From contig NC_060254.1 in the NCBI RefSeq assembly GCF_921293095.1, forward strand, positions 106,788,917 to 106,852,916: 64,000 nucleotides of DNA. Reading direction: 5' to 3'. Source of the stretch: Ischnura elegans. Lineage: Eukaryota; Arthropoda; Insecta; Odonata; Coenagrionidae. Positions 5,588-62,337 of the stretch are shown piece after piece. A program made the translations under genes and the position numbers. How positions within the stretch are numbered: the first letter of the stretch is position 1; every line of letters begins with the position of its first letter. The notes beneath the pieces are model-generated. The model saw nothing but the letters and a program-made list of their open reading frames with translations. It made no database searches and had not been told where the DNA came from.

Positions 5588-5720
5588 ATGCGGTACCTGG
5601 CGTGGATTATCACAGCCACAATCATTTGTGGCTTTGATGCTGCACCGCTTCAAAAAGATTTTGGTACAGAAGATAAAGAAATATTTCCTAAGTTATACGA
5701 TGTGCAAAAGTATACAAAAG
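5588..5720 (+). CDS. NHR gene A exon 1 (signal peptide)
   Basis: 133 nt, ending AAAG|GTAAGC in phase 1. It codes for residues 1-44. Its length and phase equal those of exon 1 of gene B. Confidence 0.75.
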
Positions 5721-8700
5721 GTAAGCATCATCATGTATTTTGATCTATTATCAAAATTATTTGTCCAAGTGATATTTCGTTTGCGGCACGCCACCGATGC
5801 ATATTTATTTTTTCCTGGAAATTAGTATAAAAATTCCTCGTAGCACTGATAGAAAACCTCCTCGAAAAGGGCCTCGAAATTAGTAGATATTAGGCTGCAT
5901 TAATATTATTAATTATCACTTAAAAAGATATAACATACAAAACACAGGATAGATGTACATAAGTAAACGCTGCAGTACACAGATTCAAAAACGAAGCAAG
6001 ATGTCCCGCAGTAACTTATGATGTTTAAAATTGAATACCGCTTGGATCTCAAATGATAATATTTCGCTTAATTTGATGCTGAAATTGCATTTAAGTGCAT
6101 AATGAGTGGAAGAGTTTATTTACGCGATGGAATTCAAGATATTACATTTATTTTTTATATATAATATTTAATCGGAAATAATAAAATAATTTTCTCATGA
6201 CTGCTCAACTTCCTCGTGGCCCAAAGGACTGTAAACTTCTTTTAAGTAACTAACGATCATAGTCTTCTTGGTATTTCAGCAAGCGATGAAATAATTTTTT
6301 CCTTGTCACCAAGTTACGATTTCTTTGCTAACCAAAAATGCATTATTATCACTTACAAGGAATCTAAATATTTATTTCTCTGAATAAAGTCATCCAAAAG
6401 TTGTTCTACTGATAAATTACTGCGGACCTCCTGGATCGTGTGCCAAAGGTACAAATGAGTTACAAGATATAATAATGAGTAAGCAAATAGTTTCTTCACC
6501 CGACCATTATCTTATTCACATGCTTCCGAGTCGATTTATTGCAAAACCAGAATAATTACCTTTTTATGCAATTAACAGAAATGTAGAAATATAATGTAAA
6601 TAAGCAGAGATCGCTAAAATTTCTTTTCATCAGAGAAATCATTTCTTTCAGAGAATTTAGACCGTCATGACGTTGCTCCTATCACTGCATTGAAAAGTTT
6701 TCCCAAAACTGAGCTAGCAGCAAAAGTAGAACACCAGCTAATCGACCTGAGTGAACAAGCTCAGTAAGTAAACACACTCTACTTTATATTAAAGAAAGAC
6801 ACCTTATTATTCTAAAACTATTAAAATAAAATTACGTACACTCCTATAAAATTTTATGCAACGATTTTTGCACGAGATAAACTATGCAAAGTCAATGATT
6901 CCGGCAAATCCACACTTATTATTGAATTAAAAATAATAGGGTGGTTTCCTATTATTTTCTTATTGCTTTAATCGAAAGATTATTACACATGGAGTGCGCA
7001 TTTCACACATTCAAGATTTTTAAATGACGATACCTTTTTTTCGCGATTAAACGAAAAGTGAAATATTTCAAGCGCGCGAATACGCGACGGCTAAGTAGGA
7101 ATGATGGGAAAGGTCAGTGTGACGTCAGTCTGGTTCCAGCTTTCGGCGTGTGAGGTGACCTTGGGGCGAGGCTTGAGCGCTGATACGACGCAGGTTGCTA
7201 GCAGGTAGCAGAGTGCCCTGCTAGCAGGTAGTGCTTGGTTTGAATAAGGATTATTATTCCCCTATCAAACGAAGGAAACTTTCCGAACGTAGGTATTTTT
7301 AATGTGTGATTATTAAGAGATGTTTCCCTGAGCTCTGTGCCGCATGCATGCATTGGTAATCTCATTGTCAGACAATAAAAAACTCCTATCTACTCGTACA
7401 GAAACTAGGTCCCTGTGACGTCACGCGGAGTGGAATCGCATGGGCGCCAATCTGGTCTTTTTCAAATGAGGTTAAAATTGACCGTTGCCATTTGTCTAAA
7501 ATGGGATTTCTAAACCAAATAATTTGTATATTATGAATACACTAATGGTGGGTAACGAATCGCAGTCAAGGCATTTCGTTTTCTTTGATGAAGGACACTA
7601 CCGTATTCACCCCTTCGTCATAAATTTACAATATTTATAATATCTCTATCGCCAGTGAAACAGATTTATGAAGTGGTGCACTACATGAAATCAAGTGCAA
7701 ATAACTTTTAATAAGTATTACAAGTACGTGGATTTATTCGAAGGTCATTACTTCACCGTGAAGATTCTTTAATTTTATCGACAAAAATATTTTTCAAAAC
7801 TTACGATTCTTCGCTAAAACATCATTATTTGGGCTCGTTGCGCGTGCTGGCCACAAACACTACCAAAACTATTTTTCATATTCTCTTTCATTCGTTCGTG
7901 CCTCAAGCATTATTCGCTATTTCTTTATTAATTGAAGTATTCAGAAAATCACAATTTTTATCGAAAAATATTCAGACCAAAATGAGGACACCCAGGTGGT
8001 ATGAAATACAAGAGGCGTTGATTTAAACTAAGAGATTTTAGTATTGAATAGCTGTAGCTTCCAGAGATTAGATTCTGGTTAAATTACTTGATAATTTTTG
8101 AAAAATTGTTTTAAACTCACTGCCGGCCTCGGTGTCTGTGAGTTAAGCGTCGCAGCTTTCACACCAAGAGGCTGCACTTTTGCCAGGGAAGGTTATTTAC
8201 CGCTTACGACGATATTACGTGGGAATGGATGCATATGCTATTCACCAAGGTACTCGAATGCTAGCGGATTAAGGGGAGGAGATTAAGGCTTCCTTCACGC
8301 CCGTAATTTCTTTAAAAAATGGCAATCTTAAAGATGACTCTCCTATTGACATTTCTAAGGTCTCTAGCTTACCATTAGGTTTAGAGATAATTGACTTAAA
8401 ATCCAAAAGCCACTATTTTCAGCTGAGACGCAATATCGCCTAGTGCCTAAAGAGGTATTACCTGCCACCAAGGCGCCTCAGAAAGTAACGAACCGCCGAT
8501 CTCGAAAATGCAACGACCTCATTCCACCCCTGATATTATCTTTTCACAGGACGAAGATCGCAGATGGAGATTCGGATTTTCTTCGCTTCAGCGAGAAGCG
8601 AGGACGGATGGTGACTCTGTCTGGGAACGGACGAACAGCCACAAGAGTGAAGTAGGTACTCTCCACAATCCATCTATTACATCCAAATATTTAAATGATT

Positions 8701-11700
8701 GGAGTTGGAATTCCTTTCTGGGACAATTACTGATTCATTATATGACGAGCGTGCTGCGCCCGCTCCCAGCGGGCTTCCCCCGCTCTTTTCAATGCAGGTC
8801 CACAGAGGGATAGGCGCGTTTCTAATTTAAAAATGTAGAAAAAAAAGGCAGGGTCTTATGTACAAATTTAATTGGAATATTCATGTACAAATTTAGGTCA
8901 GAGGACCTCTTTAAACACAACATTGGAAGTGATTACACTATCCTCTGTTAAACGCACATGATGACTCATGCTTACGTATCAACAGGAGACCTGAATGTGG
9001 AATCGGCCGCATTTTGATAAAAGTTATTTAAAGAATGCGAGATATTGTTGCAAATGAACAAATGTATCAGTTTGTGAGCCGTTAACGTCAGGAATATTAA
9101 ACGTTTTTTTAATTATTTAAAAACCAATTTTAGGAACCAATAGCAATATTTAGGAGGTAAGATATGCCGTCGCATGTTCTCTGATAAATTCTGTGCATTT
9201 TGGTACCTCATTTGTAGAGTTTGGTTGCGTATAAGTTGAGAAAAAGGTATCTTTACAGTAGAAATAATATAGTAGATTGGGAGAGGCTGGAAGTGTTCCA
9301 AATCCGATTGATTATCGGCATTCGAGTACCCAGGTTGCGAATTCACGTGCCGTATCCACTGAACCGATAGCAATGCAACGCCGCGCACGCAAGCAGTTCT
9401 ATCAAGGCCCGCCTGGGCCCTTGAAAAACAGATTATGACGCCTTCATTGAATGAACATTGTGGTTAATTCATTCATGTCCACTTCCTCACCTCTGTGTCA
9501 AGCATCCGTTGATGCAGCTAATCGCCTCTTATTACACTTTTTGGTCCTCAAATACATTTCTAATTTCCTCTTAGGACTTTGAATTACATTGTTCCTCTCG
9601 AAGATCTTGGGTTTCTCACCGGTTGAATAAGTTTCACTTGTATTTTGTACGCGGGTTCAGCGTCTTTTCTCCTGAATCCTTAATGCGGAATCAGTAATAG
9701 GGTGGTTTCCTATTTTTTCATTGCCTAAATTGAAAGATTATTACTCCTGGAGTACGTATTTCACGCTTTTACATTTTTAAATGACGATATATATTTCTCG
9801 CGATTAAATGAAAAGAGAAAATTTTCAAGTGCACAAAAACGCGACGGCTAAGTATGAATGCCGGGAAAACTCCGTGTGACGTCATTCTGGTTCCCGCTGC
9901 CGCAAGTGAGGTGACCTTGGGGCGAGGCTTTGAGCGCTGATACGAAGCAGGATGCTAGCAGGTAGCAGAGTACCCTGCTAGCAGGTAGCGCTTGGCTATA
10001 TTAAGGATTAGGTATTAATACCTTATCAAACGAAGGAAACTTTCCGGCCATAGGCAGTTCCAATAGGTGATTATTAAGAGATGTTTCCCTGAGCTCTGTG
10101 CCTCATGCATGCATTGGTAATCTCAGACGATGTAAAACTCCTATCTACTCGTATAGAAACTATGTCCCTGTGATGTCACGTGGAGTGGAATCGCATGGGC
10201 GCCAATCTGGCCTTTTTCAAATGCGGTAATACTTGACCATTGCCATTCGTCTAAACTAGGATTTCTAAAACCAAATAATTTGTACATTATGAATACACTA
10301 ATGGTGGGTAAGGAATTTCAATCAATGCCTTTCGTTTTCTTTGATGAAGGAAACTACCGTATTTTAAAACGGAACTTGCGAAAAGTTGGCATACTTTACG
10401 AACCTCACTGCTGTGATGTGTACCTAACACTCTGAGAGTAGTCAAGAGTACATATAGCTGAAAACTCTTTCTTTTTCGTCTCTTTGAACGCAGCGAATTT
10501 GGTGAGCCCAAGGTGTTTGCAATCACATACACAACGCGTCCACTCGAGGACGATGAGCTCTTCGAGATCAGAATATTGGAAGAGGATGCCGAGGCGGGAG
10601 ACAACTACAATTTGACCATCGGATTGACCACAGCGAATCCAGAACAAATAGAACACCTTCCAATGATTGCTCTCTACATCAAGTGAGTAAAATATTTAAT
10701 GCCTGACCTGGAATCAATTTGACCGTGGAAACAGCTATTATGATCGATGTGTAGAGATGCGAGAAAATCGCTGATGCGCTAAATGCGTTATAGATGCGAT
10801 GCGCGCAAATAAATGCGACAAAGATGCGATGACTGGAATTTTATGATATTTTTACGCAAATTTGGCTTTTCGACGGCAAAATACGTACATTTTGTGCCGA
10901 GCGCAGTTTAAATGCTCCGGCGACACTCACCGCTTAAAGCATGTGAGCGACTGGCCAGCTGCTAGTTGGCTGGGACTCTACGTGGCCGCGAACTACAAGT
11001 CGGAGCGGGCAAGCTACACCTCCGCCACTTTCTGTCTTATTCCTTAATTTATTATTGTTCTACAACACGATTATTTAAAATATTCTGTATTTTGTCATAT
11101 AATTGTGTTTCACTACATTTCATCGTCATCTACCTCATTATGAAAATAAAAAATAGACGCTACAAAAAGCGATAAACTGTTATTGAAAGTGCGATAAAAT
11201 AAAAATGAAAGTGCGATTTTCACGCATCTCTATTGATGTGTATTGGTAAGCTGAATTTAAAAAAATGTCAGTCAGATGACGGGTTGGTACACGCAGATAT
11301 CATGAACCAGGGATGGCATTGAGTGGCTGCTCGTAACAAAAAGCCATCATTCAATTGCTAGTAATTAATAAGCGTCCAATCAGTAGGGTGAAAGTTCAGA
11401 AAGTAACCAGGATCAAAACTAGGGGGCGGGGGGCAAGCCATGGCTGTTCAAGTTGTAGGCAACATTTGACCCTTAACAGATGACGTGCGGTCTGAGAGAC
11501 CGCTGCGTTTCTAAAATTATGAATATTTTCAAAATTAGTATTTTAAAATATCTATAATCCTCGTGAGTGTCATGATTTTGTATAAAAAGGGCATAGCGCA
11601 CTTAAAATTTAGCGTTCTTTTTATTTATTTCCGAAATTTTGCTACCGAATTTGGTTAGCGGTCTGTGAGACCTCACGTCACAAAATTTGAAAAACCATTA

Positions 11701-14700
11701 AACGTAATTCTTGTAGAAATGACTCAAAAAGCTTTTAAAAAATTTCCTAGTGATTTTTCAAGAATGATAATAATTAATAGTTTGCAAGGAAGCGTTTTTA
11801 GTGGTATTACGTGGGTGATTAAGTACTTAATTTAAAATAGTACGATAATAATAACGACTCAAGTGTTTTTTATATCAGTTTTTTGATCCTCTTTCAAATA
11901 ACAATTTTTACTGAAAAATTGGGTTCGTATTGGGAATGCATAATATTAAATATAAGTTTTAGAATAGTTAAGCAGTCAAAGAAAGATTAAACTAAGCAAT
12001 AAACATGGATTTGCAACGTTTTACGAATTTTTGTTTTATTGCGGTTTCCCGAACAGCACGTCACTGGTAGTGTAAGAAGAATTGCACGTCACTGGTTAAG
12101 GGTTAAGTAGCTGTTATTTAGTAATTGTTGAGCTGTTGTGGTTTAGTGTTAAGCATGAAAAACCAAAATTTTAAGGAAACTGTAATAGCTCTTTATTAGT
12201 TTTTAAAATTATTTGCTTGAAAAAATATTATTTTCCTTAAGGATATTTATGATTTTTGCTTCTAGGGCGGGGGGGGGGGGGCAGGAGGGGGCAACTGCCC
12301 CCTCCTACCCCTCGCTGGGTGCGCCCATGCATCTATCTGAGCTGTACATAAAATAAAAGGCGTGGTGCTCATCCGATATCTTTCCCGTGGATGCATTCCA
12401 TAATTAAGGGCGTTTATTTCGCATTTCAGCTCCCCTGGTTGGTTTCTCTACGGAACGGAAGGAAGGCAATGCAACGGAGAATGCAGACGCATTCACGGCG
12501 TCAACCTCCCAAGGAGAGGCAAGGTCAGTGAAAAAGTACATAAAGTGAAGAATGATCGTAGGCTTTCCCCACTTCAATCGAATTTTAATTGGCTTCCAAA
12601 AATGTCCGCGGCGCGGTGATAAGTGCAATGCACTTTTTTTCTATATTTTGCATTATAATATTTATAATTGCGAGAAATAGCATTGGAGAGTTATGAATTT
12701 CATAGATCATACAATCATGACTATAAACTTTGGTTGAAAGCCCTAATTTCTACTTATTTTCCCGTGAAACTCGGATCAGTTTGTCCGTCAGCGACGCGAG
12801 TGGCGACTTTTGTAAACCCATTTAAAAGCGCGGTGGGTGACAACAGATTTAATTGGCCGAATTGAGACTGACCCTCTTTTGTAAAATTCGTGGCATTCTG
12901 TTATACATTTGGCGCCATTTTGCAATATGTACTTTGATCCTACAGAGCACGAACGGGCCACAGCGCAACCCACTATGCTAGCAAGTATGATCCCATCGCA
13001 GCTGCACCGAGGCTCATTACACAATAAAGATGGTAGGGACTGAAACTGTTGAGGAGAGGACTTCCATGAAGCCATTATCTGTTGAGAGCCTCGTCGGTTA
13101 TTTTGGAACTACAATTTGTTTAATTCCTGCCGTCGCAGAGTTGGGCACAGTAAAAGGTGGTCATAATAGGGTGGTTTCCTTCATCAAATAAAACAAAAGG
13201 CATTGATTGCGATTCGTTACTCACATTTAGTGTATTCATAACATAAAAATTATTTGGTTTTAGAAATCCCAGTTTAGACGAATGGCAATGGTCAATTTTA
13301 ACCTCATTTGAAAAAGGCCAGATTGGCGCCCATGCGATGCCACTCCAAGTGACGTCACAGGGACCTAGTTTCTATTCGAGTAGATAGGGGTTTTTCATCG
13401 TCTGAGATTACCAATGCATGCATGAGGCACAGACTTCAGGGAAAAATCTTTTAATAATCACCTATTGAAACTGCCTATGGTCGGAAAGTTTCCTTCGTTT
13501 GATAAGGTTGTAATAATCCATATTTAAGCCATGCGCTACCAGCTAGCAGGGTACTCTGCTACCTGCTAGCATCATGCGTCGTATCATCGCTCAAAGCCTC
13601 GCCCCAAGGTCACCTCACTTGCGGCAGCGGGAACCAGAACGACGTCACACGGAGTTTTCGCGGCATTCATACTTATCCGTCGCGTTTTCGCGCTCTTCAA
13701 AATTTTCACTTTTCATTTAATCGCGAAAAATTGATACCGTCATTTAAAAATCTAAAAGCGTGAAATACGTACTCCAGGAGTAATAATCTTTCGATCTAGG
13801 CAATAAAAAAATAATAGGAAACCACCCTATTCCTGCCGTCGCATAGTTTGGCCAAATGCTTTAAAGGTGGTCATAGTTATTAAATATCATGTATTCTGTT
13901 TGAAATTTGGTATATAACAGTTTTCGAGGTCGCGAATTCCGAATATGATATTGAAATGTAAATAAAAATTATATTTTGCCCAAAAAATGTAATTTTGGCA
14001 AAAATAAGACAGTAGTTGTTAATTATGTCCAGTAAAAAGGGGGGAATATTTTTAATGGTATTATATTACGAATATGAAACTGATTTTTAAAATTATTCTT
14101 TTCTAAAATACATTGCAAAGCTTTAAGGCAATGGATTATTAATTTTATGAATTATTTTAAATAAATTGCATCATTTTATGCCTATTTTTAAGTTTTAAAC
14201 ATTCAAAAAGAATAAATTTCCGATATTGTTCCATGTATCTTAACGCATACGCTATACGCATGTTACATGTACATACTTATGCCTTAAAAATAAATACTGG
14301 AACATATTAAGGTAGCCAAGAAATTTACATAAAACATTATTGCATACCAGTCAATCTGCGTAGAATAGGAACAGGCCCGCGAAAACTCGCTTCGAAAAAC
14401 AAAAACTATACAAAAGCGCTGCTGGGCACTGCTTTATAACGTAATGATGTTCGAATTTTTGTTTTTTAATAAAAAATGTGTAATGTACTGGTTAATATTT
14501 ATTTTAACAATGATTTTAATGTTATATTAAAAATAGCGTTTCAAATCTATTGGCATTGCTGCATCGATGCTTCTTCTTAAATTTAAAATTGAGCCAATTT
14601 CGTAGATGTGGAGCAGTCTTGAAGATCGGAATATTTCGAAGCGAGAGGGAGGTCTATGCATCTCAGCAGCGCACCTGTCACTTTGCCAGTGATTTATACG

Positions 14701-15271
14701 AAGATGTGCATACTTACTTGATTTTCAAATTAATATCTCAGCGGATCAAATAAATGTCTTCCAACCATGATTTGAAAAATCAAAACCCAGAACGTTTATA
14801 TTTCTAATTATGACCACCTTTTATAGATTTGGCCCCACTGTGCGTCGCATCGAGACCTAGGAATAATGAGTATGAAGAGAAATGAAGCTGCATTTTTAAC
14901 GATAGCGATTGTGGCGCCACTGGTGGAAAACATTTTTAGCCCAACATAACATACGGACGCAGGTTACATGCGGAATGATTCGGGTTAATGGGGCAGCCGC
15001 TTAGTTGGAACAACGTGTATCGGTCCAGACATATCCCAATCCACCGCAATGTACCGCATTTGCTAAGTTTCAAAATCGAATTTTTACTAATACGAAACCA
15101 ATTTTTTTACAGGTGAACGACACGTTAGGAGTGATGAGGAAATCTTCTGGGGACATCAACTTTTATTTCAATAAAAAGTTTATAGGCTCCATTACGACAC
15201 TGTTTCCAGGAGAAGTATATGGTGTGGTAGATTTGCGAAATAATGTTGACAAAATCAAAATAACATCGTAA
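5588..15271 (+). CDS. NHR gene A: predicted secreted single-NHR-domain protein, 6 exons, 262 aa
   Basis: Exons: 5588-5720, 6652-6763, 8550-8651, 10494-10682, 12430-12523, 15113-15271; intron phases 1,2,2,2,0. Residues 1-18 form a signal peptide (MRYLAWIITATIICGFDA). Residues 19-91 include LKSFPKTELAAKVEHQ, shared with gene B. Residues about 92-262 form a Neuralized homology repeat: FSEKRGRMVTLSGNGRTATR at the start, then RPLEDDELFEI, IGLTTANPE and PGWFLYG, then INFYFN...GEVYGVVDL. NHR domains are protein-protein or lipid-contact modules in Neuralized E3 ligases. Here RING, transmembrane segment and second NHR are absent. The mature chain has only C193 and C197, plus N-glycosylation sequons at N155 and N212. 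The exon model rests on consensus splice sites, continuous frame and the paralogue at 36545. The NHR assignment is by motif recognition; the function is unknown. Confidence 0.85.
6652..6763 (+). CDS. NHR gene A exon 2 (conserved N-terminal segment)
   Basis: Acceptor TTCTTTCAG at 6651, donor TCA|GTAAGT. Codes for residues 45-81, with LKSFPKTELAAKVEHQ at 58-73. Using the next AG as acceptor would give an early stop. Confidence 0.8.
6935..7607 (-). mobile_element. AATAGGG MITE, copy 2 (reverse), intron 2 of NHR gene A
   Basis: Aligns end to end with copy 1 in the opposite orientation. The right end carries a substitution (CCGTATT for CCCTATT). Confidence 0.85.
8550..8651 (+). CDS. NHR gene A exon 3 (start of NHR)
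   Basis: Acceptor TTTTCACAG at 8549, donor GTGAA|GTAGGT. Codes for residues 82-115, including the first NHR strands (FSEKRGRMVTLS, GRTATRV). Confidence 0.8.
9696..10363 (-). mobile_element. AATAGGG MITE, copy 3 (reverse), intron 3 of NHR gene A
   Basis: Full length, with right end CCGTATT as in copy 2. It ends only 130 bp before exon 4. Confidence 0.85.
10494..10682 (+). CDS. NHR gene A exon 4 (NHR core)
   Basis: Acceptor TTGAACGCAG at 10493, donor ATCAA|GTGAGT. 189 nt, the same length and phase as gene B exon 4. Codes for residues 116-178, including the IGLTTANPE motif typical of NHR domains. Confidence 0.85.
11473..12099. mobile_element. piggyBac-type MITE, intron 4 of NHR gene A
   Basis: TTAA at both ends (11473-11476 and 12096-12099). 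Inside these, the left end reads CAGATGACGTGC and the right end, reverse-complemented, CCAGTGACGTGC. A GCGGTCTGAGAGACCGC palindrome follows the left end and a related GCGGTCTGTGAGACC lies near 11661. No transposase. TTAA target plus short terminal repeats fits piggyBac. Confidence 0.65.
12430..12523 (+). CDS. NHR gene A exon 5 (cysteine loop)
   Basis: Acceptor GCATTTCAG at 12429, donor GGCAAG|GTCAGT. Codes for residues 179-210, PGWFLYG followed by QCNGEC and GVNLPRRGK. It contains the only two cysteines of the mature protein. Confidence 0.85.
13165..13831 (+). mobile_element. AATAGGG MITE, copy 4 (forward), intron 5 of NHR gene A
   Basis: Full length, 667 bp. It is flanked by two diverged copies of a segment of about 42 bp (13123-13164 and 13829-13874), the second of which carries the left end of the hAT-like element at 13844. 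Confidence 0.85.
13844..14841. mobile_element. hAT-like non-autonomous element, intron 5 of NHR gene A
   Basis: The left end TAGTTTGGCCAAATGC..AAAGGTGGTCATA matches the reverse complement of the right end, CAGTGGGGCCAAATC..AAAAGGTGGTCATA. Flanking octamers CCGTCGCA and GCGTCGCA fit an 8-bp target duplication with one mismatch. The interior is AT-rich without a transposase. Confidence 0.6.
15113..15271 (+). CDS. NHR gene A exon 6 (C-terminal NHR half)
   Basis: Acceptor TTTTTACAG at 15112, in phase 0, to TAA at 15271. Codes for residues 211-262, with the NHR hallmark GEVYGVVDL. Confidence 0.85.
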   Translation: MNDTLGVMRKSSGDINFYFNKKFIGSITTLFPGEVYGVVDLRNNVDKIKITS

Positions 15272-15783: not shown

Positions 15784-15789
15784 AATAAA
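15784..15789 (+). terminator. candidate poly(A) signal of NHR gene A
   Basis: First AATAAA after the stop, 513 nt downstream. An ATTAAA at about 15447 is an alternative closer to the stop. Confidence 0.3.
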
Positions 15790-17073: not shown

Positions 17074-17720
17074 AATAGGGTAGTTTCCTTCATCAAAGAA
17101 AAAGAAAGGTATTGATTGCGATTCATTACCCACCATTAGTGTATTCATAATGTAAAAATTATTTAGTTTTAGAAATCCCAGTTTATACGAATGTTAATGG
17201 TCAATTTTATCCTCATTTGAAAAAGGCCAGATTGGCGCCCATGCGATACCACTCCACGTGACGTCACAGGGACCTAGTTTCTATACGAGTAGATAGGAGT
17301 TTTACATCGTCTGAGATTACCAATGCATGCATGAGGCACAGAGCTCAGGGAAACATCTCTTAATTATCACGGTAATCACCTATTAAAATTGCCTAAGGTT
17401 GGAAAGTTTCCCCACTCTAGCTAGCTGGGTACCTTGCGCAACCGCCATGCTCGGCAGCAAGTAGCCTGCATCGTAGCGGCGCTCATAGCCTCGCACCCAG
17501 GTGGCCTCACACAGCGGCAGCTGGAACCAGAATGACGTCACACGGCTTCTCCCAATATTCATACTTAGCCGTTGCGTTTTCCCTCGCTTGAAAATGCTCA
17601 CTTTTCAATTAATCGCGAAAAATAGATATCGTCATTTAAACATCTAAATGCGTGAAATACGTACTCCAGGAGTAATAATCTTTCGATTTAGGCAATACAA
17701 AAATAGGAAACTACCCTATT
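17074..17720 (+). mobile_element. AATAGGG MITE, copy 5 (forward)
   Basis: 647 bp. The interior differs from other copies between about 17410 and 17530 (GCTCGGCAGCAAG, CGCACCCAGGTGGCC). It shares this variant only with copy 7, so the two form a subfamily. Confidence 0.85.
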
Positions 17721-20402: not shown

Positions 20403-20433
20403 GCCAATTCGAGTCGTTCCGAATAGAGTAATG

Positions 20434-51600: not shown

Positions 51601-54600
51601 TTGAGCATTGTGAGGAATACCAACATGTACCCATTCACCAAATTTCATTGGTCGAACGTATATAGTAACCAAGTTATGCCAATTTGCGTATTTACTATAA
51701 TTATCGAATCGATCTTTCGATTATACTGGCAACTGTACTGTAAAATCCGCAACGATATTGATTTTATTTCCAGTCTATGGTCATCTACTACATAATTACT
51801 GGTCAACTATGCCCTTGGATGTAAAATCCTATATGTTATAGCAATTCGATATATTTTAAGAAAAAGCATATTCGATATATATCGAACGTGAGACTACATA
51901 CAAAACATATTTCCATTGTGCATTGTGAGGAATACCAAGATGTACCCAAATTCGCCAAATTTCATTGGTCCAACGGATATACTATTCAAGTTATGCCAAT
52001 TTGTGTATTTGCTGTAATAATCGAATCGTTTTTTCGATCATACTGACATCTGTAGTGTAAAATCCGCAATGCTATTGGTTTAACTTACAGTCTATGGGTA
52101 TCTACTATATAATCCCTGGTCATCTATGTCCTAGGAAGTAAAATCCTATATGTTATAGCAATTCGATATATTTTAAGAAAAAGTAGATTCGATAGATATC
52201 GAACGTGAGCCAATATACAAAACATATTTCCAATGTGCATTGTGAGGAATACCATGATGTACCCATTCACCAAATTTCATTGGTCCAACGTATACACTAA
52301 TCAAGTTATGCCAATTTGCGTATTTGCTATACTAATCGAATCGTACTTTCGACTATACTGACACCTGTACTGTAAAATCCGCAATCCTATTGATATCCCT
52401 TCCATTCTATGGTCACTCCGTTATCCCTGCCTTCTCTACTATCCCCGCTTTCAAAATTTAGCCTATGTTCTTATATTGGTGACGTAGATAGACGCGATGC
52501 GTGTATTTCTTACGGGGGCCTAATACAAAAAGATACAAATTCATATTGATATGTCTGCATTAGGAAACATTACTCATCTAAATAATTTATGTGTACTAAT
52601 AAAACATTCCTTCCCTTATCTATTGTTAAAATTTTTATCCCCGTAACTATTATAAATAGGTCTGAAAAATGGCTCCATCGAATGCAACCTTGTATCGATC
52701 ATAACTTCGACTCTAATCGCTCGATGCGCTTGATTTAACTTTTGTCGAAGAAATGACATTAACAGTAGTATTATATATGACTTTCATATTCATAACTTGA
52801 TTTAAAAAAAAGTTATTAGCGATTTAAGCGTAACCAAGGAGATTGGTATCGATATAACTCGCACATGAATCGATCGAGCGAAATGGTCATCATTGCAAAA
52901 GTTGACCATTTTGATATAAGTATTACCCTAAAAATTCCATTCATCTAGCTGGAACGGTTGCTATGATATTCAAGATTGTATGCCCCACAAAAAAATGGCG
53001 ACAATGATTTTTCGCGTGCAGGATATTTTTCGGAATTTAATTATGAATTAACCAAGAGGGTTACGGGGAAAGCAGTTAGAACGTGAGGGTACAAAGTACC
53101 CTCTACTGTTTTTCCAGAAGATTCCAAATTTTCTTATGACATATGTCTCAAGGCCGAAATCCGAATTTGAAAATTCCCCCATCACGACAATGTAAAATCG
53201 AAATCGTTTATTCCTCGGAATTGTTTCGACATATAAAAATTCCAAGATAGCCAAAAAATCAAGCAAAATATCCTACACCTTATATTTCAAGGAATTTGTC
53301 CTACAATTATTGCAAATTGGTCAACAAAATTCCTGAACTTTTTCCATAAGAAAAGCATAGAAAACGTTCAAAAAATAATAAAAAATACTAAATATCAATT
53401 TGTCGCTATGGCAACAATACCAAATAATCAACCAAAAAATCTAGTTTATGTCCATTGAATATTATGTTCCTCAGACGTTTAAAAGTACAAAATAAAAGCG
53501 AAAAAGTTTTAGTCCCATAAGGCTCCCATGTTAATTCAAGTCGATATATCTCGAAAACTAATCGACTTTTTCAATTTTTAAGAATTTTTCTCCCGATGAA
53601 TTTTTTTTTACTTTTACGTCCAATAAGCCAAATACCCACGCCTATCACAGTTTGGGCTGCGAAATTGTATCAATGAGTCAGTCAGTCAATCGATTTGCCA
53701 TTTTATATTAGCTTAATTTGCCGTCTTATATTAGCTTAATAAATAATAATGATTATAAAAATAAAGAGCTTTCACCTCGGTATCGCACTTTCTGTGTAAA
53801 TAGCAAAACAAAATGTTTCCGACGGAGATCAAATTACGGTCCTTTATTGAAACTTGCGGTACAGAGGATTCAGATTGCTTGAAAAAATATTGATTAAAAT
53901 ATGTTAACTCGCGTTCTTATGTGATGTCGATTTGAGAGCTGGCGTACGAAACTTAAGCTATTCAGCTCGCAAAAAAATTTTTTGAAGCGTACCTACACGG
54001 TACACTTTAGTTTTTGTTTTTTATTTAGGTATCGTAATAGTAAATGAATTATTTAATTTTGAAATTTTCCCAAATTACTTTTTTGAGCCCCCGGCATTCG
54101 CCGCCATTCCTCCCCGGCAAACGGCCGAGGTCAGACTCAGATTGCTTGAAAAAGTATCGATTTAAAAATATGTTAACTCAATTAAATTTGCTTTCCCTAA
54201 AGAGAATGTATGCTTTGAAATGACGAAGCACTCATAAAAATATGAAAATCACATTCAGCGCATGCTGGGAGAACGCTCGATCAAATTAGATGAGCACACT
54301 TTGGAATGAAATTTAGTTGTCCAGGTGTAGTTGCCACGTTGAATTAAATGCACAAGTAAGTGAAAAGCCGTTTTTCTCCACTCTTTCCACACAGTCCACT
54401 TGGAGAGGTCAACGTCAATGCGCTTGCATTTACGTCAAGACCACTTCAGGACGATGAGCTCCTCGAGATCACTATCTTGGAGAAAAATGCCGAAGATGGG
54501 GAAAATTACTTCTTGTCAATCGGAGTGACGACCGAATTTCCTGAAAAAATCAAAGAAGTACCAACGGAGATTCTGGGCCTTATGTAAGTACGACGAAACC

Positions 54601-57600
54601 TGAGGTGATATCCGGTGCAGTCAAATCGATGACTCGGTAAAAATAGCTGAATAGTGAGTGATGTATGGCCGTTTTCCAATTCGCAATTATTCACCCTTCG
54701 TGCACTTTTCGATCGTCAACTTAAGGATGTGACGACAGCAAAGGTAGATCCAATCGACGAGGGCACGAAGGAACGAGGGAACGAAGGGTAAGCGAACAAG
54801 GGAACGCGGATTCTCCCTCGATAGCGTGCCCGCGTAGGAAGTAGACGTGAAAATGGCGGCAATGGAAAAATCAGAAATCTTGAACTGGAGTTTTAAGTAA
54901 TTTTGTGTTTATTATTTGAGCTCTTTTACGTAATATTATATCGGCATTTGCTCTTCACGTGCAAAAATATAAGTATAAAGGTGAAACTGATTCTTAAATC
55001 AACCACCAGATGTCCTAACACTTCCCCGCGCGTCACATTTCGTTACTGTCAACAGTTCGCATTATTTCCGTTCGCACTTTATGGCGCCAGTAGAGCATTA
55101 GTAAGGGAGCAGGGTGCAAGGGAGAAAGGGAACGAGGGAATTAGTGTATACTACGTGGATTGGAAAACGGCCATAGCCTACTGAGATAATTCAATGACAA
55201 ACACTCACCATTCATTACTAAGTTATTTCGTGATCTGCTCAGCCAATTCAAGACCGCCAAGCATCACGTTGATTTGAAATACAAACAGTAAGTTCGGTTC
55301 CAAAAAATATGGAAGACTGTGAGCGTACACTGATATGTATAATGAGGAATCGGGAAAGTTGTACTAATATCCCGGCAAAGTCAAATAATTTTCCACAGCG
55401 ATTGACTTGCACTTTTTAATTAAATTAAGAATTGCAATGAACATCTCGAGGGCCTCGATGTAATGTTTTCAATTCATCGTTCATCTGAATTACCTGTTTT
55501 CCATAAAGACGTTGCATTAAAGCATATCGTGGAGCTGAATCATTGTCAGAAAAAAATATAAAAAAAACGGATTACATATTGTTTGGAACCTTTGAAAAAA
55601 ATCATGAACGGCAACAAATTAACAATAACATGATGTTTTCTTGGTATAATATATTACGCTAGCGAGATGTTTATTTAAAGTTGATACATTATTATGTGCA
55701 CACTACGTATGAAAAATAATATTTAAGCAAGGTCAAATAATGCATTCATTCTGACTTTTCTTGGCAAAGAAGCAGATGATACGGTATGTCACCAGAATAG
55801 CATAGATTAAAGTGACGAAAATTAAGCGTAAATAACTGATGAGAGGTGCTTATTTCAGAGCCCCTGGGTGGTTTCTCTACGGTGTGCAGGGGTTCCTGTG
55901 TGCCAGTAAAAAATGCGTTGATATTGACGGCGTTAAGCTTCCAAGGAATGGTAAGGTGAGTGTCAATAATGGGACGAAGTGTCGTCGAGCTTTCAAGTGG
56001 CAATGAGCTCGTGGAGTTTTCCTCATTGGGATAGTGCATGTTATTGGATAAAAGTTTGGCCACAGCATACGATATCGATCGGGAATAAAAATGAATTTAA
56101 GGGTAAAAACAATGCGGAAAATTCATATCGTGTGCTTCAAGTTAGCACTTTTATAGCTATTAGAACAGACCATTAAGCCTTTTTCATACAAATAGAGTGA
56201 TTTTACTTCAATTACTGCATTCATTCGCTAATTACTGAAAAATTATAACGGTAATAACCCTATTAATATTTATTTTTATCATAATTATACATGATTAAGG
56301 AATATTATGCTGGAATTTATCGTAAATGATAAATGATTTGACGCAGTCATAAATACTTTTTCCTTGCCAATACTTGCTTAATAGCGTGCACCAAAATTGG
56401 CATTTTCAGCGGCAATTTCCAGAAAATTTAGAAAGAGTTTTCAAGGCTTGTATTGAAGTTTTCTAGCAAATTGTATATAGTTATTTTCTCTAGCCAATCT
56501 CTGCAATTATCTGCAGCGGTTCCAAAATTTCCTAATACCCAACACGGCTTAAGTCCGCCATTCTGGTCAACGCCAAAATTACATGATTCTACGTTAAAAG
56601 AAGTTTTATCCAAAAATTCAAGAGGTTAAGTTTTCAAAATAAACATAAGAAAGTATTTAAGAGCTAATAATATATGAGCTTAATAGGTTAATGTGAACTT
56701 TTTTAATTTTGGTAAATCGTAGTTTACTACGACAAAGGAAAAAAATTCGGCAATTCAAATATGTATTTAAGCGTAATTAATTTGATGGCAAGACCTAAAA
56801 AAAGAATTTTTTATACAAATTAAATTGGCAAAATTGCCGGAGAAATAATTAAATTTAAGTCTATCACAATGATATGTTCTTTTCAATAACACAGGCTAAC
56901 ACAGAATGAAAAAACTTTTTTCTGAAATACCTTATTCTTATGTTTTTAAAGTTGCTGAATCCAAATATGATGGTTTTAAAGTTGTATCACCCACCATTTA
57001 TTCACATTTTACAGTTAAATTTATGAAATCAAGCGATATTTTTAGAATTTTACAGCTTTTTATAGTTATAATAAAATTGAAAAAGTAGGTCTAATGAACG
57101 AAGATAATGGGGGATTACTTACTGTTGGTACTTCTCCGAGAAGGACAGAAAGCGATTCATCGCAGAAAAAGCAACAAAAGAAGCTTGAAGGAAAAAAGGG
57201 AAAGAAAATTTAGATCAATTCCAGTTGAAAAGTGAACCCTGTATTATCACGTTCCAGTAATTACAAACAATTATGTCACGATGTGGTGAACGGTAAATAC
57301 AAACAATTTTATGATGTAACACAGTGTTTCATTGATTTCCCTGTATATCGTACAGGAATATTAGACTAAATATTAAAATACATATTGCTTGGAAACTAAG
57401 AGTGACACAAAAAACCTAAGGCCAGGTTTGGATTCCGAACTTCAAAATTTATAAAGATCAGCTATTAAAATAAAAACGTTTTCAAGCAAACTTTTTGTTG
57501 GCTTGAGTAATTGGTGTTTTAATAGGGTGGTTTCCTATTATATTTTATTGCCTAAATCGAAAGATTATTACTGCTGGAGTACGTATTTAACGCATTTAGA

Positions 57601-59359
57601 TTTTTAAATGGCGATATCTATTTTTCGCGATTAAATGAAAAGTGAGAATTTTCAAGCGCGCGAAAACGCGACGGGTAAGAATGAATGCCGGGAAATCTCT
57701 CCGTGTGACGTATTTCTCGTTTCCGCAGCCACCCTGTGAGATGACCTTGAGGGGGGCTTGAGCGCTGATACGACGCAGGCTGCTAGCGGGTAGCTGAGTA
57801 CCCTGCTAGCTGGTAGCGCTAGGCTTAAATAAGGATTATTAATACCTTATCAAACGAAGAAAACTTTCCGACCTTTGCCAGTTTTTATAAGTGATTATTA
57901 AGACATGTTTCCCTGAGCTCTACGCCTCATGCATGCATGCATTGGTAATCTCAGACGATGTAAAACTCCTATCTACTCCTATAAAAACTAGGTCCCTGTG
58001 ACGTTACGTGGAGTGGCATCGCGTGGGCGCCAATCTGGCCTTTTTCAAATGAGGATAAAAATGGACCATTGCCATTCGTCTAAACCGGTATTTCTAAGAC
58101 CAAATAATTTGTATACTAAGAATACACTACTGGTGGGTAACGAATCGCAATCAATGCCTTTCGTTTTCTTTGATGAAGGAAACTACCCTATTGGCATTCA
58201 TGTAGTCGTTTCATTCATAAATATTCACCTGAAGCCGATTACCATCCCATCTCAGCTAATTCCATTTTATTCTTATCAACATCGTTTCACTATCTAACCC
58301 ATCATCTATCACAATTGCGTGCAATATAATGTTTTTACGACAGGGATCCGTTTGAGCGCATATGAAAGGAATTCCATTCAAAGTGTATTCTTCGCTAAAG
58401 TTAGGATATCCGGACTACGTCCGCGTTTGCCGACGAAAGAAATGAATGCAGGAGTGAGACATATGGTCCTAAAAAGGGCCGAGCAAACCAGGATGAAAAC
58501 AACCTGTGTGCCTGACCACCGCGAGGGAGACTCAAGGGCGGAGCCAAATGTCAATATCCCATTGATGATGTCTCCATGTTTCTGGGCTTCACCGCGTGGA
58601 TTTTTCTTTATGACGACAGTTTCTCCGGTATTCCAACCGGCGTCTTCAGATCGACGTAAAGAAAAATCATAAAGAAAAATCCACGCGGTGAAGCCCAGAA
58701 ACATGGAGACATCATCTAGACAACGCCGCGGAAAACTACGCATCAAATCGCATTGATTGTGAGAAAGGACATCATAGAACGAGAATTCAAATGCGACACT
58801 AAGATAAATGACCACCGAAGGAGTAAATTGTTCTCCGAGAGCGCGTACCAAGTGCCACGCGCCATTTTTTGGCAATAAGGTTGTTTCCTTCATCAAAGAA
58901 AACGAAAAGCATTGATTGCGATTCGTTACCCACCATTAGTGTATTCATAATATACAAATTATTTGGTCTTAGAAATCCCAGTTTAGACGAATGACATTGA
59001 TCAAATTTAACCGCATATGAAAAAGGCCAGATTGGCGCCCATGCGGTGCCACTCCACGTGCCGTCAGCGGGACCTAGTTTCTATACCAGCAGATAGGAGT
59101 TTTACATCGTCTGAGATTACCAATGCATGCATGTGGCATAGGACTCAGGGAAATATCACTTAATAATCACCAATTAGAACTGGTTAAGGTCGTAAAGTTT
59201 CCTTCATTTGATATTTGAAAAATAACCATTGCACCTTATTTAAGCCTAGCGCTACCAGCTAGCAGGGTACTCTGCTACCTGCGTCTTATCAGCGCTCAAA
59301 TCCTCGCCCCAAAGTCACCTCACTTGCGGCAGCGGGAACCAGAATGACGTCACACGGAG

Positions 59360-59406
<47 letters not shown>

Positions 59407-62337
59407 TTTATTACTCCACACACAAATTACATGACAATAACAAATTTGAGTAATTTTAGGTAGCCGCGAAGGATAACCTGTTTGAGGCTACCATCCAAAA
59501 TAATAATATTTATGCTTTACATACAGTGTTCATTTTGTGCTACCTTGATAATCTATGCAACCAAAGTTTAAGTGCGTACATGAAAAAAAAACAACTAAAG
59601 TACTATTTATAATTCATTTACAACAATATTTGTTCTACACTTTCTTTAGTGAGAAGCCAAGAATGTACATTTTGAAAAAACTTTTTTGAAGACTTTGAAA
59701 TAAAACATGACTGTGGTAACAAATTAAAAACCTTTGGTCCTACGTACAAAAAACATCTTTTAAACAAAGTCAAATTTGGTTGTGGTAAGGGCACACTTAT
59801 TTTACGCAGGGCAAAGGGAGAAGGCAGGGACTGAAATATTTTAGAGTTGCCACTTCTAGCATAAAAACATCGTAGGACCTTATTAATATATAGATGCCTC
59901 AACGGAAGCAAACCCAAATGAAGAAAAAGTGGGAAGGATCTTTCAAATCTGTCCTTTTTCAAAATAATAGGTACAATTCTTTTTTGTAAAAAAACAGCAG
60001 GTTTCAAGGAGTTTAGATATGCGCCACCCCAACAAAAAATGCCATAGCTTAGCCTGGTATTTACTAAGGCGTTATAAATTGTCTTTAGAAAGCTTTCAGG
60101 ACATTTATTTCTAATGAAATAAAAATTTGCCAGTGTGTGACGCATAACATTTGTGAGACTGTATATGTTGATTCCACTTTAATTAATCGTCAATTGTTAC
60201 TCCTAAGTACTTAATACTAGAAACCCGTTCAATGGGTAAACAGCTATTGCATAAAGTTATAGGACAATTTTCTTCATGATAATGTAAAACCCAATCAAAT
60301 TTGTACCTGTTACATAAGTTATAACATATATACTTCGTTTTAGCTACAATCATATTCAATTTGTTGGAGGCAAACCAACGTCGCAAATTGATCAGATCTG
60401 ACTGTATATCATATTTTACATCTATCCAGTTTAAACCTGAATAATTTAAGGCGACATCATCAGCAAATGCTGTCACATGACCTCTAAAATTGAAATTACA
60501 CATATCGTTTATATAAACAAGAAATAAGATTGGACCCAAGACAGAGCCTTGAGGCACTCCAGAAGTTATCATACCATAATTACTACAAACATCACCAATT
60601 TTTACACACTGCATTCTCGATGACAGGTAACTGTTAAACCATTTCAGTGGTATTCCACGAATTCCGGTCCTCTGAAGCTTAAAGAGCAGAATCTTGTGAT
60701 CGATGGAATCAAAAGCCTTGCTAATGTCAATGAATAAGCTGCCAGTGCGTCGATTTGAGTTTATGACACTGTAAACATGAGTGAAATAATTTTCAAGAGC
60801 ATCTTCTGTGCCCTTTCCACTTAAAAACCCGAACTGGTTTTTGCTGAAGAAGCCTTTTTTGTCTAGAAATTTAATTAATCTCGACTTGACTAGCTTCTCT
60901 ATTATTTTGGAAAATATCGATAACAATGAAATTGGACGATAGTTGAGTATACTTGAACGATCCCCTTTTTTATATAAGGGCGTGACCACCGCCTTTTTCA
61001 ACTCGTCTGGAAAAACACCACTGGTAAAACTTAGGTTAAATATATGTGAAAGAACGGGAGCTAAGTCATCAATTACTAGTTTCACTGTTTATGTTGTCGT
61101 AACCGGGGGCTTTGCTGGAAGGAAAGGATCTCACTAATTTAGTTATTTCTGCGGGGTCAACTGGTTGAGTTTTCCCAGCATTCATACTTAGCCGTCGCGT
61201 TTTCGCGAGAAATAGATATCGTCATTTAAAAATCTAAAAGCGTGAAATACGTACTCCAGGAGTAATAATCTTTCGATTTAGGCAATAAAAAAATAATAGG
61301 AAACCACCCTATTGTGAGAGAGCTGAAAACACGTCTCAATGTACGCCGGAGGGCAACTAAAAGAAAACTGATCAAAGGATCGAAGATCACGCCTGGAGTG
61401 GTCCGGGCCCACGATTATTTTCGAAGGCGCTAACATAATAGCGAAAGAAGGTGCAAACGACTCTGATGTCGACGCACCCCTGTAACGTATTTCTATTTCT
61501 ACGAAAGGAAATAAATATCTCCGCACAATCACATGAGAGGCCATAGAAATCGTCTGAAGGCCAAATAATTTCAATGGGGAAGATGGGAATCCAATCCACA
61601 GCGCGTGAGAAATAATAATCCCACAAACATTAGATTACATTCTAAAGATTTTGAATCTAATTGAATAATGGAAGTTTCGCCACATTTCATCAATCAACAT
61701 TCCTGTCCATACGCTGAATTCCCGTTGCAGTACGCTGAATCGTTGGTTTCGTTAAATATTTCCATTGAAGGCCAAAAGTACCGCGGTGATGAGTTGCATG
61801 CTGCAACCGTTCAGTTTTCCTGACTTATGACGTAAAACATACCGTTTACGAACCCCTAACTACAATGATTATGAATGACCAGATAACTACTACAATCGCA
61901 AAAGAAGAAACCGCATTCTAAGAAAATGTAAATAACTCGGTGATATGTAGCTCAATACGACAATATACTACATGTTGCTCCTTTGAATAATTTTGTGGTT
62001 CGGGAATTCGGGAATCATTCAAACGTACATAGAGCAATAAATACAGTTGAACTTTCATTCATTCCTCAATTTAAATGTAGTACTCCGTAAAATATTTAAA
62101 AAAAACGTCCGATTAGCTTTGACCACTTGTGATATTTCGCATGGAAGTATTATATTTAATCTTCATTTCTTTATTCCGCAGGTTAATGACACTTTGGGAG
62201 TGAGAATGACTTCTGGAACCATCAGATTCTTTTTCAATCAAGATTTGATTGGTTTGGTCGACACAGAATTTTACGGAGAAGTGTACGGCGTGGTGGATTT
62301 AGAATACAACGTTGATAAGATCGCAATAACATCTTAA
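36545..62337 (+). CDS. NHR gene B: predicted secreted single-NHR-domain protein, 6 exons, 258 aa
   Basis: Exons: 36545-36677, 39625-39730, 40624-40719, 54395-54583, 55859-55955, 62182-62337; intron phases 1,2,2,2,0, the same as gene A. Residues 1-19 are a signal peptide (MTFLRPIIVATIIFGIAGA). Residues 58-73 LKSFPKTRLASKVEHQ align without gaps to gene A. Residues about 89-258 are the NHR domain: FSDKRGRLLILTDGRRTLTR, SRPLQDDELLEI, IGVTTEFPE, APGWFLYG, GEVYGVVDL. The only two cysteines are C189 and C194, and a sequon N209-D-T matches N212 of gene A. Roughly half the NHR residues are identical between the two. No RING or membrane anchor. Introns are far longer than in gene A (intron 3 is 13.7 kb) and filled with repeats. 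Exon 1 has a weak donor (GTTCGT), supported by identical exon length and phase in gene A. Function unknown. Confidence 0.83.
37500..39364. mobile_element. hAT-like non-autonomous element, intron 1 of NHR gene B
   Basis: The left end CAGGAATGTGCGAGTA matches the reverse complement of the right end, TAGGGATGCGAAAGTA. Octamers GAATGCGC (37492-37499) and GAATATGC (39365-39372) fit an 8-bp target duplication with two changes. GAGTCGAGTCGAGT repeats lie inside both ends. No transposase recognised. Confidence 0.6.
39625..39730 (+). CDS. NHR gene B exon 2 (conserved N-terminal segment)
   Basis: Acceptor CACTTTTCAG at 39624, donor GAACT|GTAAGT. Codes for residues 45-79, two codons shorter than gene A exon 2. 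Confidence 0.8.
40432..40510 (+). repeat. tRNA-related SINE fragment, intron 2 of NHR gene B
   Basis: GCGGGTTCCAATC resembles a pol III B box, with an A-box-like CTAAGAGGTAACAG about 45 bp upstream. The arms do not fold into a complete tRNA. Confidence 0.35.
40624..40719 (+). CDS. NHR gene B exon 3 (start of NHR)
   Basis: Acceptor AATTTGCAG at 40623, donor ATCAA|GTAAGA. Codes for residues 80-111, with FSDKRGRLLIL. Confidence 0.8.
41520..41642. repeat. 123-bp foldback hairpin, intron 3 of NHR gene B
   Basis: CAATAA...CAGCTGGCAGTA...AACGCTCACCTCC pairs with GGAGGTGAGCGTT...TACTGCCAGCTG...TATTATTG around a 15-nt loop. Possible foldback MITE or long hairpin RNA. Confidence 0.55.
42530..43018 (+). 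pseudogene. non-LTR retrotransposon RT relic, intron 3 of NHR gene B
   Basis: QVSVIGPLLFFMCINGL (RT motif B region, degraded from GVPQGSVLGPLLF...IN.L) is followed by KIRLFADDAVKYREI (motif C, FADD) and VHLWSQEW, then a TGA at 42740-42742. After it come LELNLSKCMVVHF and VDGINI. This order is typical of jockey/CR1-group RTs. No upstream motif A is visible. Confidence 0.75.
43411..43850. repeat. GGGGTAAGTGCGAC repeat cluster
   Basis: CCTGGGGTAAGTGCG (43411-43425) is the exact reverse complement of 43435-43449. Variants of the same motif recur near 43455, 43497 and 43833. Probably the ends of an unidentified transposon; the 62-aa ORF inside (43683-43871) has no recognised domain. Confidence 0.4.
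43860..47317. other. intron 3 of NHR gene B, nothing recognised
   Basis: AT-rich. Short ORFs on both strands lack domains or splice context. Confidence 0.35.
47318..47525. repeat. inverted pair of tRNA-derived SINE heads
   Basis: Plus-strand copy at 47451-47525: A-box-like TGGTATGAGTGG and perfect B box GGTTCGAATCC (47501-47511). Minus-strand copy at 47318-47376: B-box-like GGTTTGAATCG. Both share TGACCGGC.ATCGGG before the B box. Acceptor stems do not pair, so functional tRNAs are unlikely. Confidence 0.5.
47526..49214. other. intron 3 of NHR gene B, with a GC-richer patch
   Basis: Mostly AT-rich. About 48120-48540 is GC-richer with many CpGs and short overlapping ORFs on both strands, none recognisable. 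Confidence 0.35.
49215..49346 (-). repeat. inverted copy of the ~140-bp DR1 repeat
   Basis: Reverse complement of the units at 50034-50720: shares GACAACCAA.GTGTCAAA, GTGCCAAAGTCGGTTAGGCAG, and GGGGTCAAAGGTCATAG near 49328. Together with the forward array it brackets about 0.7 kb. Confidence 0.65.
49649..49978 (-). CDS. 109-aa hypothetical ORF between inverted repeat arrays
   Basis: Open frame of 109 codons with no domain I recognise. It lies between oppositely oriented copies of the 140-bp repeat, so it may be a remnant of a protein carried by that element, or chance. No splice or promoter support. Confidence 0.15.
   Translation of the reverse strand: MSCVLHISTVISDKTPLPAYLHAVVDYLFPLDILFPDFVSAHYCPRSVYWKIPGVRYNEFKSSKLEDLESVMVQELQQKKSMAIETISAFGWLSSTMKTPCSHFSLLSY
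50034..50720 (+). repeat. tandem array of ~140-bp units with DR1 sites
   Basis: About five units. ATGACCTTTGACCCC recurs at 50044, 50185, 50322, 50462 and 50603 (spacing 137-141). Each unit also has GGATCTATGAACTGC..AACCGACTT.GGCAC and GACACGTTGGTTGTCAT or near variants. TGACCTTTGACCC is the reverse complement of GGGTCAAAGGTCA, a DR1 nuclear-receptor consensus. Confidence 0.75.
51154..52414 (+). repeat. ~315-bp satellite, 4 tandem copies
   Basis: Units begin TCTACTATATAATTCCTGGTC or variants at about 51154, 51469, 51784 and 52101. Each contains GCAATTCGATATATTT, a palindrome related to TTCGATATATATCGAA, and CACCAAATTTCATTGGTC. The array lies wholly inside intron 3 of NHR gene B. Confidence 0.8.
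52415..54394. other. end of intron 3 of NHR gene B
   Basis: No gene. It contains a 24-25-bp tandem duplication near 53692-53741 (TTTATATTAGCTTAATTTGCC type) and a direct repeat of about 48 bp, CAGATTGCTTGAAAAA...ATGTTAACTC, at 53867 and 54134. Confidence 0.45.
54395..54583 (+). CDS. NHR gene B exon 4 (NHR core)
   Basis: Acceptor TTTCCACACAG at 54394, donor CTTAT|GTAAGT. 189 nt. Codes for residues 112-174, with DDELLEITILE and IGVTTEFPE. Confidence 0.85.
54664..55175. mobile_element. 512-bp inverted-repeat element, intron 4 of NHR gene B
   Basis: TATGGCCGTTTTCCAAT (54664-54680) is the exact reverse complement of 55159-55175. The interior has GGGAACGA-type repeats and no transposase. No clear target duplication was seen. 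Confidence 0.55.
55859..55955 (+). CDS. NHR gene B exon 5 (cysteine loop)
   Basis: Acceptor TATTTCAG at 55858, donor GGTAAG|GTGAGT. Codes for residues 175-207, with PGWFLYG, LCASKKC and GVKLPRNGK. Confidence 0.85.
55956..57520. other. first part of intron 5 of NHR gene B
   Basis: AT-rich and without recognised genes apart from the weak 39-codon ORF at 57094. Confidence 0.4.
57094..57213 (+). CDS. 39-aa hypothetical ORF
   Basis: MNEDNGGLLTVGTSPRR and onward, ending in a lysine-rich tail (KKQQKKLEGKKGKKI). Its composition is unlike the surrounding AT-rich sequence. It could be a stray terminal exon, but no partner exon was found and the frame does not join gene B. Confidence 0.12.
   Translation: MNEDNGGLLTVGTSPRRTESDSSQKKQQKKLEGKKGKKI
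57521..58192 (-). mobile_element. AATAGGG MITE, copy 8 (reverse), intron 5 of NHR gene B
   Basis: Full length, with AATAGGGTGGTTTCC at left and GGAAACTACCCTATT at right. Shares the AATCTCTCCGT variant with copy 6. Confidence 0.85.
58564..58716 (-). repeat. Penelope-like remnant: 49-bp perfect inverted repeat around a hammerhead-like core
   Basis: 58564-58612 and 58668-58716 are exact reverse complements with a 55-bp spacer. On the minus strand the spacer holds CTGAAGA, a stem CCGGT/ACCGG, GAAAC, TGTC and GTC. The arms would form an extended stem I. Penelope-like elements often carry inverted terminal segments and hammerheads, so this is probably a fragment of one. Confidence 0.6.
58612..58649 (-). 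ncRNA. hammerhead-ribozyme-like motif
   Basis: Minus strand: core CTGAAGA (58649-58643) matches CUGANGA; stem II CCGGT/ACCGG with a 6-nt loop; GAAAC (58623-58619); TGTC loop; GTC ending at 58612, the predicted cleavage base. As in the motif at 31463 there is extra sequence between A9 and stem II. An A replaces the expected C opposite the stem base. Confidence 0.5.
59364..59406. repeat. (TAA)n microsatellite, retrotransposon tail
   Basis: About 14 uninterrupted AAT/TAA units at the 3' end of the minus-strand element. Confidence 0.85.
59618..61130 (-). pseudogene. non-LTR reverse transcriptase (jockey/CR1-group type), broken
   Basis: A short upstream frame (AEITKLVRSFPSSKAPGYDN) shifts near 61090 into a 300-codon frame (61085-60183) with RT motifs in order: NYRPISLLSIFSKIIEKL, NQFGFLSGKGTEDAL, FIDISKAFDSIDHKIL (motif A), SGVPQGSVLGPILF (motif B), TAFADDVAL (motif C), SIKYLGVTIDD. 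After a stop and a frame change, 60145-59618 continues with the post-RT region (YNALVNTRLSYGIFCWGG, LLPLRHLYINKVL). The endonuclease and ORF1 are absent. Inactive. Confidence 0.85.
61314..62181. other. end of intron 5 of NHR gene B
   Basis: No recognised element; short minus-strand ORFs only. Confidence 0.4.
62182..62337 (+). CDS. NHR gene B exon 6 (C-terminal NHR half)
   Basis: Acceptor TATTCCGCAG at 62181 to TAA at 62337. Codes for residues 208-258, with GEVYGVVDLEYNVDKIAITS. Confidence 0.85.
   Translation, partial: VNDTLGVRMTSGTIRFFFNQDLIGLVDTEFYGEVYGVVDLEYNVDKIAITS

Follow-up and report, generated by a model that had tools for sequence, protein, structure and literature searches.

What would a single Neuralized homology repeat (NHR), a fold known from the ubiquitination of Notch ligands and from NEURL4, be doing behind a start that resembles a signal peptide? 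The question is raised by two neighbouring genes, gene 1 and gene 2, in a stretch of 64,000 nucleotides from the damselfly Ischnura elegans (C9:106788917-106852916, hereafter the window), which an initial annotation had described as a tandem pair encoding predicted secreted proteins with one NHR each. The answer that we favour, and consider probable with real room for doubt, is that both genes are functional, that each encodes a small secreted protein whose lone NHR binds an extracellular partner, and that selection has diversified exons 4 and 5. RefSeq already lists both genes, gene 1 under a name given by domain likeness and gene 2 as uncharacterized; what we rate as new is the place in which a known domain occurs, together with its expansion and diversification there.

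Gene structure and domain content

Both genes could be rebuilt with six exons and the same intron phases (1,2,2,2,0 in each), as had been read initially, with GT-AG at 10 of 10 introns, and the products, of the anticipated 262 (gene 1) and 258 (gene 2) residues, match exactly the RefSeq proteins P0001 ('neuralized-like protein 4') and P0003 ('uncharacterized protein LOC124166005'). The exons lie in the window as follows.

5588-5720, + strand: gene 1 exon 1, hydrophobic N-terminal segment, signal-peptide-like (residues ~1-19), and linker start; phase 1 donor
6652-6763, + strand: gene 1 exon 2, conserved pre-NHR segment (LKSFPKTELAAKVEHQ)
8550-8651, + strand: gene 1 exon 3, NHR start
10494-10682, + strand: gene 1 exon 4, NHR; together with exon 5 the fastest-diverging exon among other recent family copies
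12430-12523, + strand: gene 1 exon 5, NHR hairpin with Cys193 (12470-12472) and Cys197 (12482-12484)
15113-15271, + strand: gene 1 exon 6, NHR end and stop codon; sequon Asn212-Asp-Thr at 15116-15124
36545-36677, + strand: gene 2 exon 1, signal-peptide-like segment MTFLRPIIVATIIFGIAGA and linker
39625-39730, + strand: gene 2 exon 2, conserved pre-NHR segment
40624-40719, + strand: gene 2 exon 3, NHR start
54395-54583, + strand: gene 2 exon 4, NHR; 25 of 189 bases unlike gene 3
55859-55955, + strand: gene 2 exon 5, NHR hairpin with Cys189 (55899-55901) and Cys194 (55914-55916); 13 of 94 aligned bases unlike gene 3
62182-62337, + strand: gene 2 exon 6, NHR end and stop codon; sequon Asn209-Asp-Thr at 62185-62193

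Pfam, a PDB sequence match and fold comparison agreed on the identity of the domain. In a profile hidden Markov model search against PF07177 (cut-off 23.3 bits), gene 1 scored 74.2 and gene 2 scored 46.7 bits, the alignment covering 1-148 of the 149 profile positions in one stretch per protein, and the family was matched by all six paralogues (P0001 to P0006, introduced below). The NHR is also single and unaccompanied, as first described, PF07177 being the sole Pfam family found. The RING of Neuralized-type E3 ligases (NEURL1/3, Neur) had no Pfam match in the two products or their paralogues; the several repeats characteristic of NEURL4 were not found, with one PF07177 stretch per protein; for the SOCS box of NEURL2/Ozz, there was no second Pfam family, and the NHR reaches the last residues; and neither SPRY nor lectin families had a Pfam match in the two products. 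The automatic name 'neuralized-like protein 4' is misleading for gene 1. Between gene 1 and gene 2 the NHR is under constraint, since its nonsynonymous divergence (dN) is 0.33 and its synonymous divergence (dS) 1.19; in the stretch before the NHR the values are 0.66 and 0.68.

Paralogues, export features and family size

The two genes are indeed neighbours, but the tandem pair has proved to be part of a larger array: gene 3, which encodes P0002 and rebuilds exactly, starts 4,751 bases beyond the window end, so that the array has three members or more, and its members belong to a large family. The P0004 gene is on chromosome 4, P0005 and P0006 come from a reverse-strand array at C9:49.66-49.71 Mb, and frames are intact in the trio and in P0004. 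About 3.3 kb before the P0004 gene there is a solo exon 4 (C4:27488135-27488326; L025 4136-4324) with its splice sites kept, no other exons found nearby, and intron flanks that look close to those of gene 2. Within the reverse-strand array, copy beta (C9:49.68-49.69 Mb, L020-L021) is broken: exon 1 contains a stop, two pieces resemble exon 3, and exons 4 and 5 were not found. In P0006 (LOC124165659 isoform X2), exons 1-2 are those of one copy and exons 3-6 those of the copy that follows (C9:49658800-49707999; L033, L019-L022), a mixture due either to splicing from gene to gene or to a prediction that fused two copies. Protein searches with queries of this first N-terminal architecture gave six I. 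elegans proteins only (at E ≤ 10, or at E ≤ 1 in one of the searches), and the method needs shared 5-residue words, so absence from other odonates is not shown by it. None of the titles in an open-access literature search (neuralized/NHR, Ischnura, secreted) concerned secreted NHR proteins, and in passages of PMC9334734 NHR serves solely to label a domain in the legend of a figure.

Secretion, the other part of the initial annotation, stands as a prediction: the proteins of genes 1 and 2 are likely exported, because a hydrophobic N-terminus, a CX3-4C pair in exon 5 and a sequon are each present in 6/6 paralogues; its weak part is the gene 1 cut site. The N-terminal stretches reach a best 8-residue mean hydropathy of 2.6-3.3, and hydropathy revealed no later 19-residue stretch of equal hydrophobicity in any of the six proteins. 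In genes 2, 3 and P0004 the hydrophobic stretch ends with AGA followed by RF, and in the five paralogues other than gene 1 a short hydrophobic core is followed by small residues. Both cysteines flank the turn of one hairpin in the gene 1 structure model, and the sequon, near the exon 5-6 border, reads NDT in five proteins and NVT, four residues earlier, in P0006 (raw count).

A genome search with PF07177 produced 116 exon matches (158 candidates, 150 scored), a lower bound for exons because exon 4 of both gene 1 and gene 2 was missed. Nineteen of the matches are in two loci taken as multi-NHR genes, one of them at C8:59.19-59.23 Mb, and the remaining 97 (46 exon-4-like and 51 exon-6-like, on nine contigs) need not all belong to lone-NHR genes, single genes having been verified only at the loci read. 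A second N-terminal architecture was found upstream: five such exons were read, from two copies of a chromosome 11 cluster at 83.7 Mb and from loci on chromosome 12, chromosome 10 and chromosome 11 (78.2 Mb), and each has a signal-peptide-like start, a Cys, the motif (A/S)G-x-W and a second Cys, in a region for which Pfam gave nothing significant. With one of these exons as query, 38 places were found at E ≤ 1, and at 27 of them a same-strand NHR exon lies within 20 kb downstream (0.065 by random placing), leaving 11 without. Because exons with a signal-peptide-like start precede NHR exons at many places, secretory-looking NHR genes are, as judged from sequence, many and of at least two architectures. 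Five of the 11 unaccompanied matches are at C10:21.80-21.86 Mb, where either the N-region lacks an NHR or the NHR was missed.

Exon-specific divergence and its possible causes

Between P0002 and P0003, 27 of 28 protein differences fall within exons 3-5, and only 1 of 80 positions differs in exons 1-2. At the DNA level, exon 4 of genes 2 and 3 differs at 25/189 bases, compared with 11/726 noncoding bases of the same aligned block, and exon 5 at 13/94 compared with 36/1180, while exons 1 and 6 differ by one base each in blocks that differ by ~5% (the intron figures come from the five exon-holding aligned blocks among 14 matches). The same tendency was found in two groups of copies, the second being the 49.7 Mb array, from which six pairs were compared: nonsynonymous divergence in exons 4 and 5 exceeded flank divergence in 6/6, with ratios (and p) of 5.36 (3.6e-10), 2.73 (1.3e-6), 2.59 (8.2e-6), 1.44 (0.05), 1.40 (0.09) and 1.53 (0.009), i.e., below 0.05 in four, 0.05 in one and 0.09 in one, values that are nominal, as the pairs share sequences and are not independent. 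These are pairs of DNA copies; P0005-P0006 as a protein pair is not gene against gene, because P0006 mixes two copies. In the second group, exon 5 gave nonsynonymous/synonymous/flank values of 0.222/0.143/0.112, 0.206/0.098/0.111 and 0.318/0.097/0.137, on 2-3 synonymous changes per pair. Exons 1 and 2 carried fewer amino-acid changes than introns predict in every compared pair, exon 6 was kept in genes 2-3 and in gamma-delta, and variable NHR positions coincided between the groups (20 versus 13.7 expected, P=0.009). The older comparisons, gene 1 with P0003 and with P0005, had no such inversion.

Flank divergence was measured inside BLAST matches, and exons 2-6 were counted in pairs with copy alpha; exon 1 of gamma and delta was three bases too long in the comparison, which affects their exon-1 counts only. 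Fixed 300-base flanks were rejected, having run across the breakpoints of insertions and, in places, given too high a flank divergence (63/570 for exon 5 of genes 2-3); with them, the excess in exons 4 and 5 was less clear, and the exon 2 and exon 4 flanks of P0004 seemed unalignable.

Based on these divergence patterns and on the lack of a matched ligase or other domain, we propose a secreted binding module. The signal peptide would direct the chain into the secretory pathway, leaving a short flexible N-terminal stretch followed by one NHR beta-sandwich as the body, with a Cys-Cys bridge that probably staples one hairpin tip. With no ubiquitin-ligase part, the NHR would act as the lone recognition module for a partner outside the cell. 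Tandem duplication would have made many copies, among which selection diversified the middle of the NHR, encoded by exons 4-5, and kept the signal peptide and pre-NHR segment (and in some pairs exon 6). Such a pattern would be that of recognition proteins following moving targets, whether pathogens or partner molecules in reproduction, and the exon 4-5 divergence fits that role; the ligand or lectin-like family suggested by the initial annotation stays a conjecture. In the 49.7 Mb group, diversifying selection on the mid-NHR seems the simplest cause, because in 3/3 pairs nonsynonymous change in exon 5 exceeds both synonymous and intron change.

Besides the dependence among the six pairs, several points tell against this proposal. 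The excess in the second group is modest (p 0.05, 0.09, 0.009), exon 6 of the two alpha pairs has nonsynonymous divergence of 0.223 against 0.102 in the flanks, and positions outside strands are not significantly more often variable (29/88) than those within them (18/80; p=0.17). For exons 3-5 of genes 2 and 3, dN (0.131) and dS (0.111) give a ratio near 1, not far above it, and synonymous sites are raised as well, to 0.105 in exon 4 and 0.175 in exon 5 against 0.018 and 0.034 in the flanks. On the side of export, the case is built from sequence features such as hydropathy; the cleavage site of gene 1 is weak, the simple (-3,-1) rule giving only early cuts, after residues 14-15; and the predicted structure, the gene 1 model, is weak before about residue 120. 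A scan of clusters L036 and L037 for signal-peptide starts gave no candidate, with an insensitive method that missed the L034 exon too; in L037, one N-exon match falls outside the stretch that the scan covered.

Since synonymous sites are raised too in genes 2-3, some of their divergence may be due to clustered mutation or to conversion from older copies. Whether exon-limited gene conversion from older paralogues, rather than selection on amino acids, could be the main cause throughout, with the proteins still secreted, is a stronger claim, which we think rather unlikely. It would account for synonymous and nonsynonymous divergence rising together; the exons are similar enough for recombination, a solo exon 4 is present at C4:27488135, and, by reading, one run of the variant bases in gene 2 exon 4 is as in that solo exon and another as in the P0004 exon. 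Yet comparison of four exon-4 copies, which differ pairwise at 18-31 of 189 bases, revealed no donor with an identical tract, and the second-group exon 5 values, few as their synonymous changes are, run the other way in all three pairs.

That the N-terminal segment stays uncleaved as an anchor or goes unused, the proteins being ordinary intracellular or endoplasmic reticulum-membrane NHR adaptors, we judge improbable. The atypical cleavage site of gene 1 would suit it and, to our knowledge, characterised NHR proteins are intracellular; against it stand the short core and the small residues after it in every paralogue except gene 1, the conserved Cys pair and sequon, and the different exon, with a signal-peptide-like start of its own, that precedes NHR exons in other clusters. 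Functionless drift of young duplicates, to which at least one broken array copy (beta) would point, is very improbable given the intact frames of the trio and P0004, the sparing of exons 1 and 2 in each pair, and the constraint on the NHR between genes 1 and 2.

Beyond the secreted binding module itself, we raise as a tentative possibility, on balance a doubtful one, that the damselfly, and perhaps odonates at large, use the NHR as a large extracellular repertoire (tens of genes, nine contigs, at least two N-terminal architectures) with exons 4-5 as hypervariable cassettes set among constant exons and perhaps splicing across genes, as in P0006, i.e., a variable-receptor system of invertebrates built on a new fold. 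If the secreted-module reading is right, an insect order in which immunity and reproduction are little studied would have a large, fast-changing recognition family.

Surroundings of the genes and known systems

The window also holds other elements, as follows.

376-963, + strand: Hsp20/alpha-crystallin frame (PF00011, E=1e-22), upstream of gene 1
24963-25589, - strand: two DDE_Tnp_1_7 fragments (Pfam match), piggyBac-type by reading
29128-30393: reverse transcriptase frame (RVT_1, E=2e-10), Penelope-like by reading
30920-31225: frame like the end of a GIY-YIG nuclease, no significant Pfam match
60183-61088, - strand: reverse transcriptase frame (RVT_1, E=1.5e-32), of non-LTR (long terminal repeat) type by reading, within gene 2 intron 5
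4545-5213, 6935-7607, 9692-10363, 13147-13831, 17074-17724, 30268-30939, 32440-33090, 57521-58192, 58874-59360: copies of a short element

The short element measures ~670 bases, has inverted ends near AATAGGGTRGTTTCC and occurs nine times, incompletely at the last position; the copies are 81-91% identical to the one at 13147, and five lie within gene 1 and gene 2 introns. One copy parts the reverse transcriptase frame at 29128-30393 from the frame at 30920-31225, which carries what looks like a GIY-YIG motif.

Among known systems, the C-terminal region of Thrombospondin-1 (2rhp), with 8% identity and of a different family, has the fold class alone in common. The SPRY/B30.2 proteins TRIM9, TRIM67, SPSB2 and RanBP9 are intracellular, and the damselfly proteins have no SPRY match in Pfam. 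NEURL2/Ozz is small and has one NHR, but it pairs this with a SOCS box, which Pfam did not find in the damselfly proteins, and we know of no signal peptide in it. Drosophila Neuralized (NHR1, PDB 4kg0 / 2yue) has two NHRs and a RING, the latter not found in the damselfly proteins. NEURL4 (KIAA1787; NHR, PDB 2e63) works inside cells, whereas the damselfly proteins combine one NHR with a signal-peptide-like start and a Cys pair; if they are indeed secreted, the fold of ubiquitin-ligase adaptors works outside cells as well.
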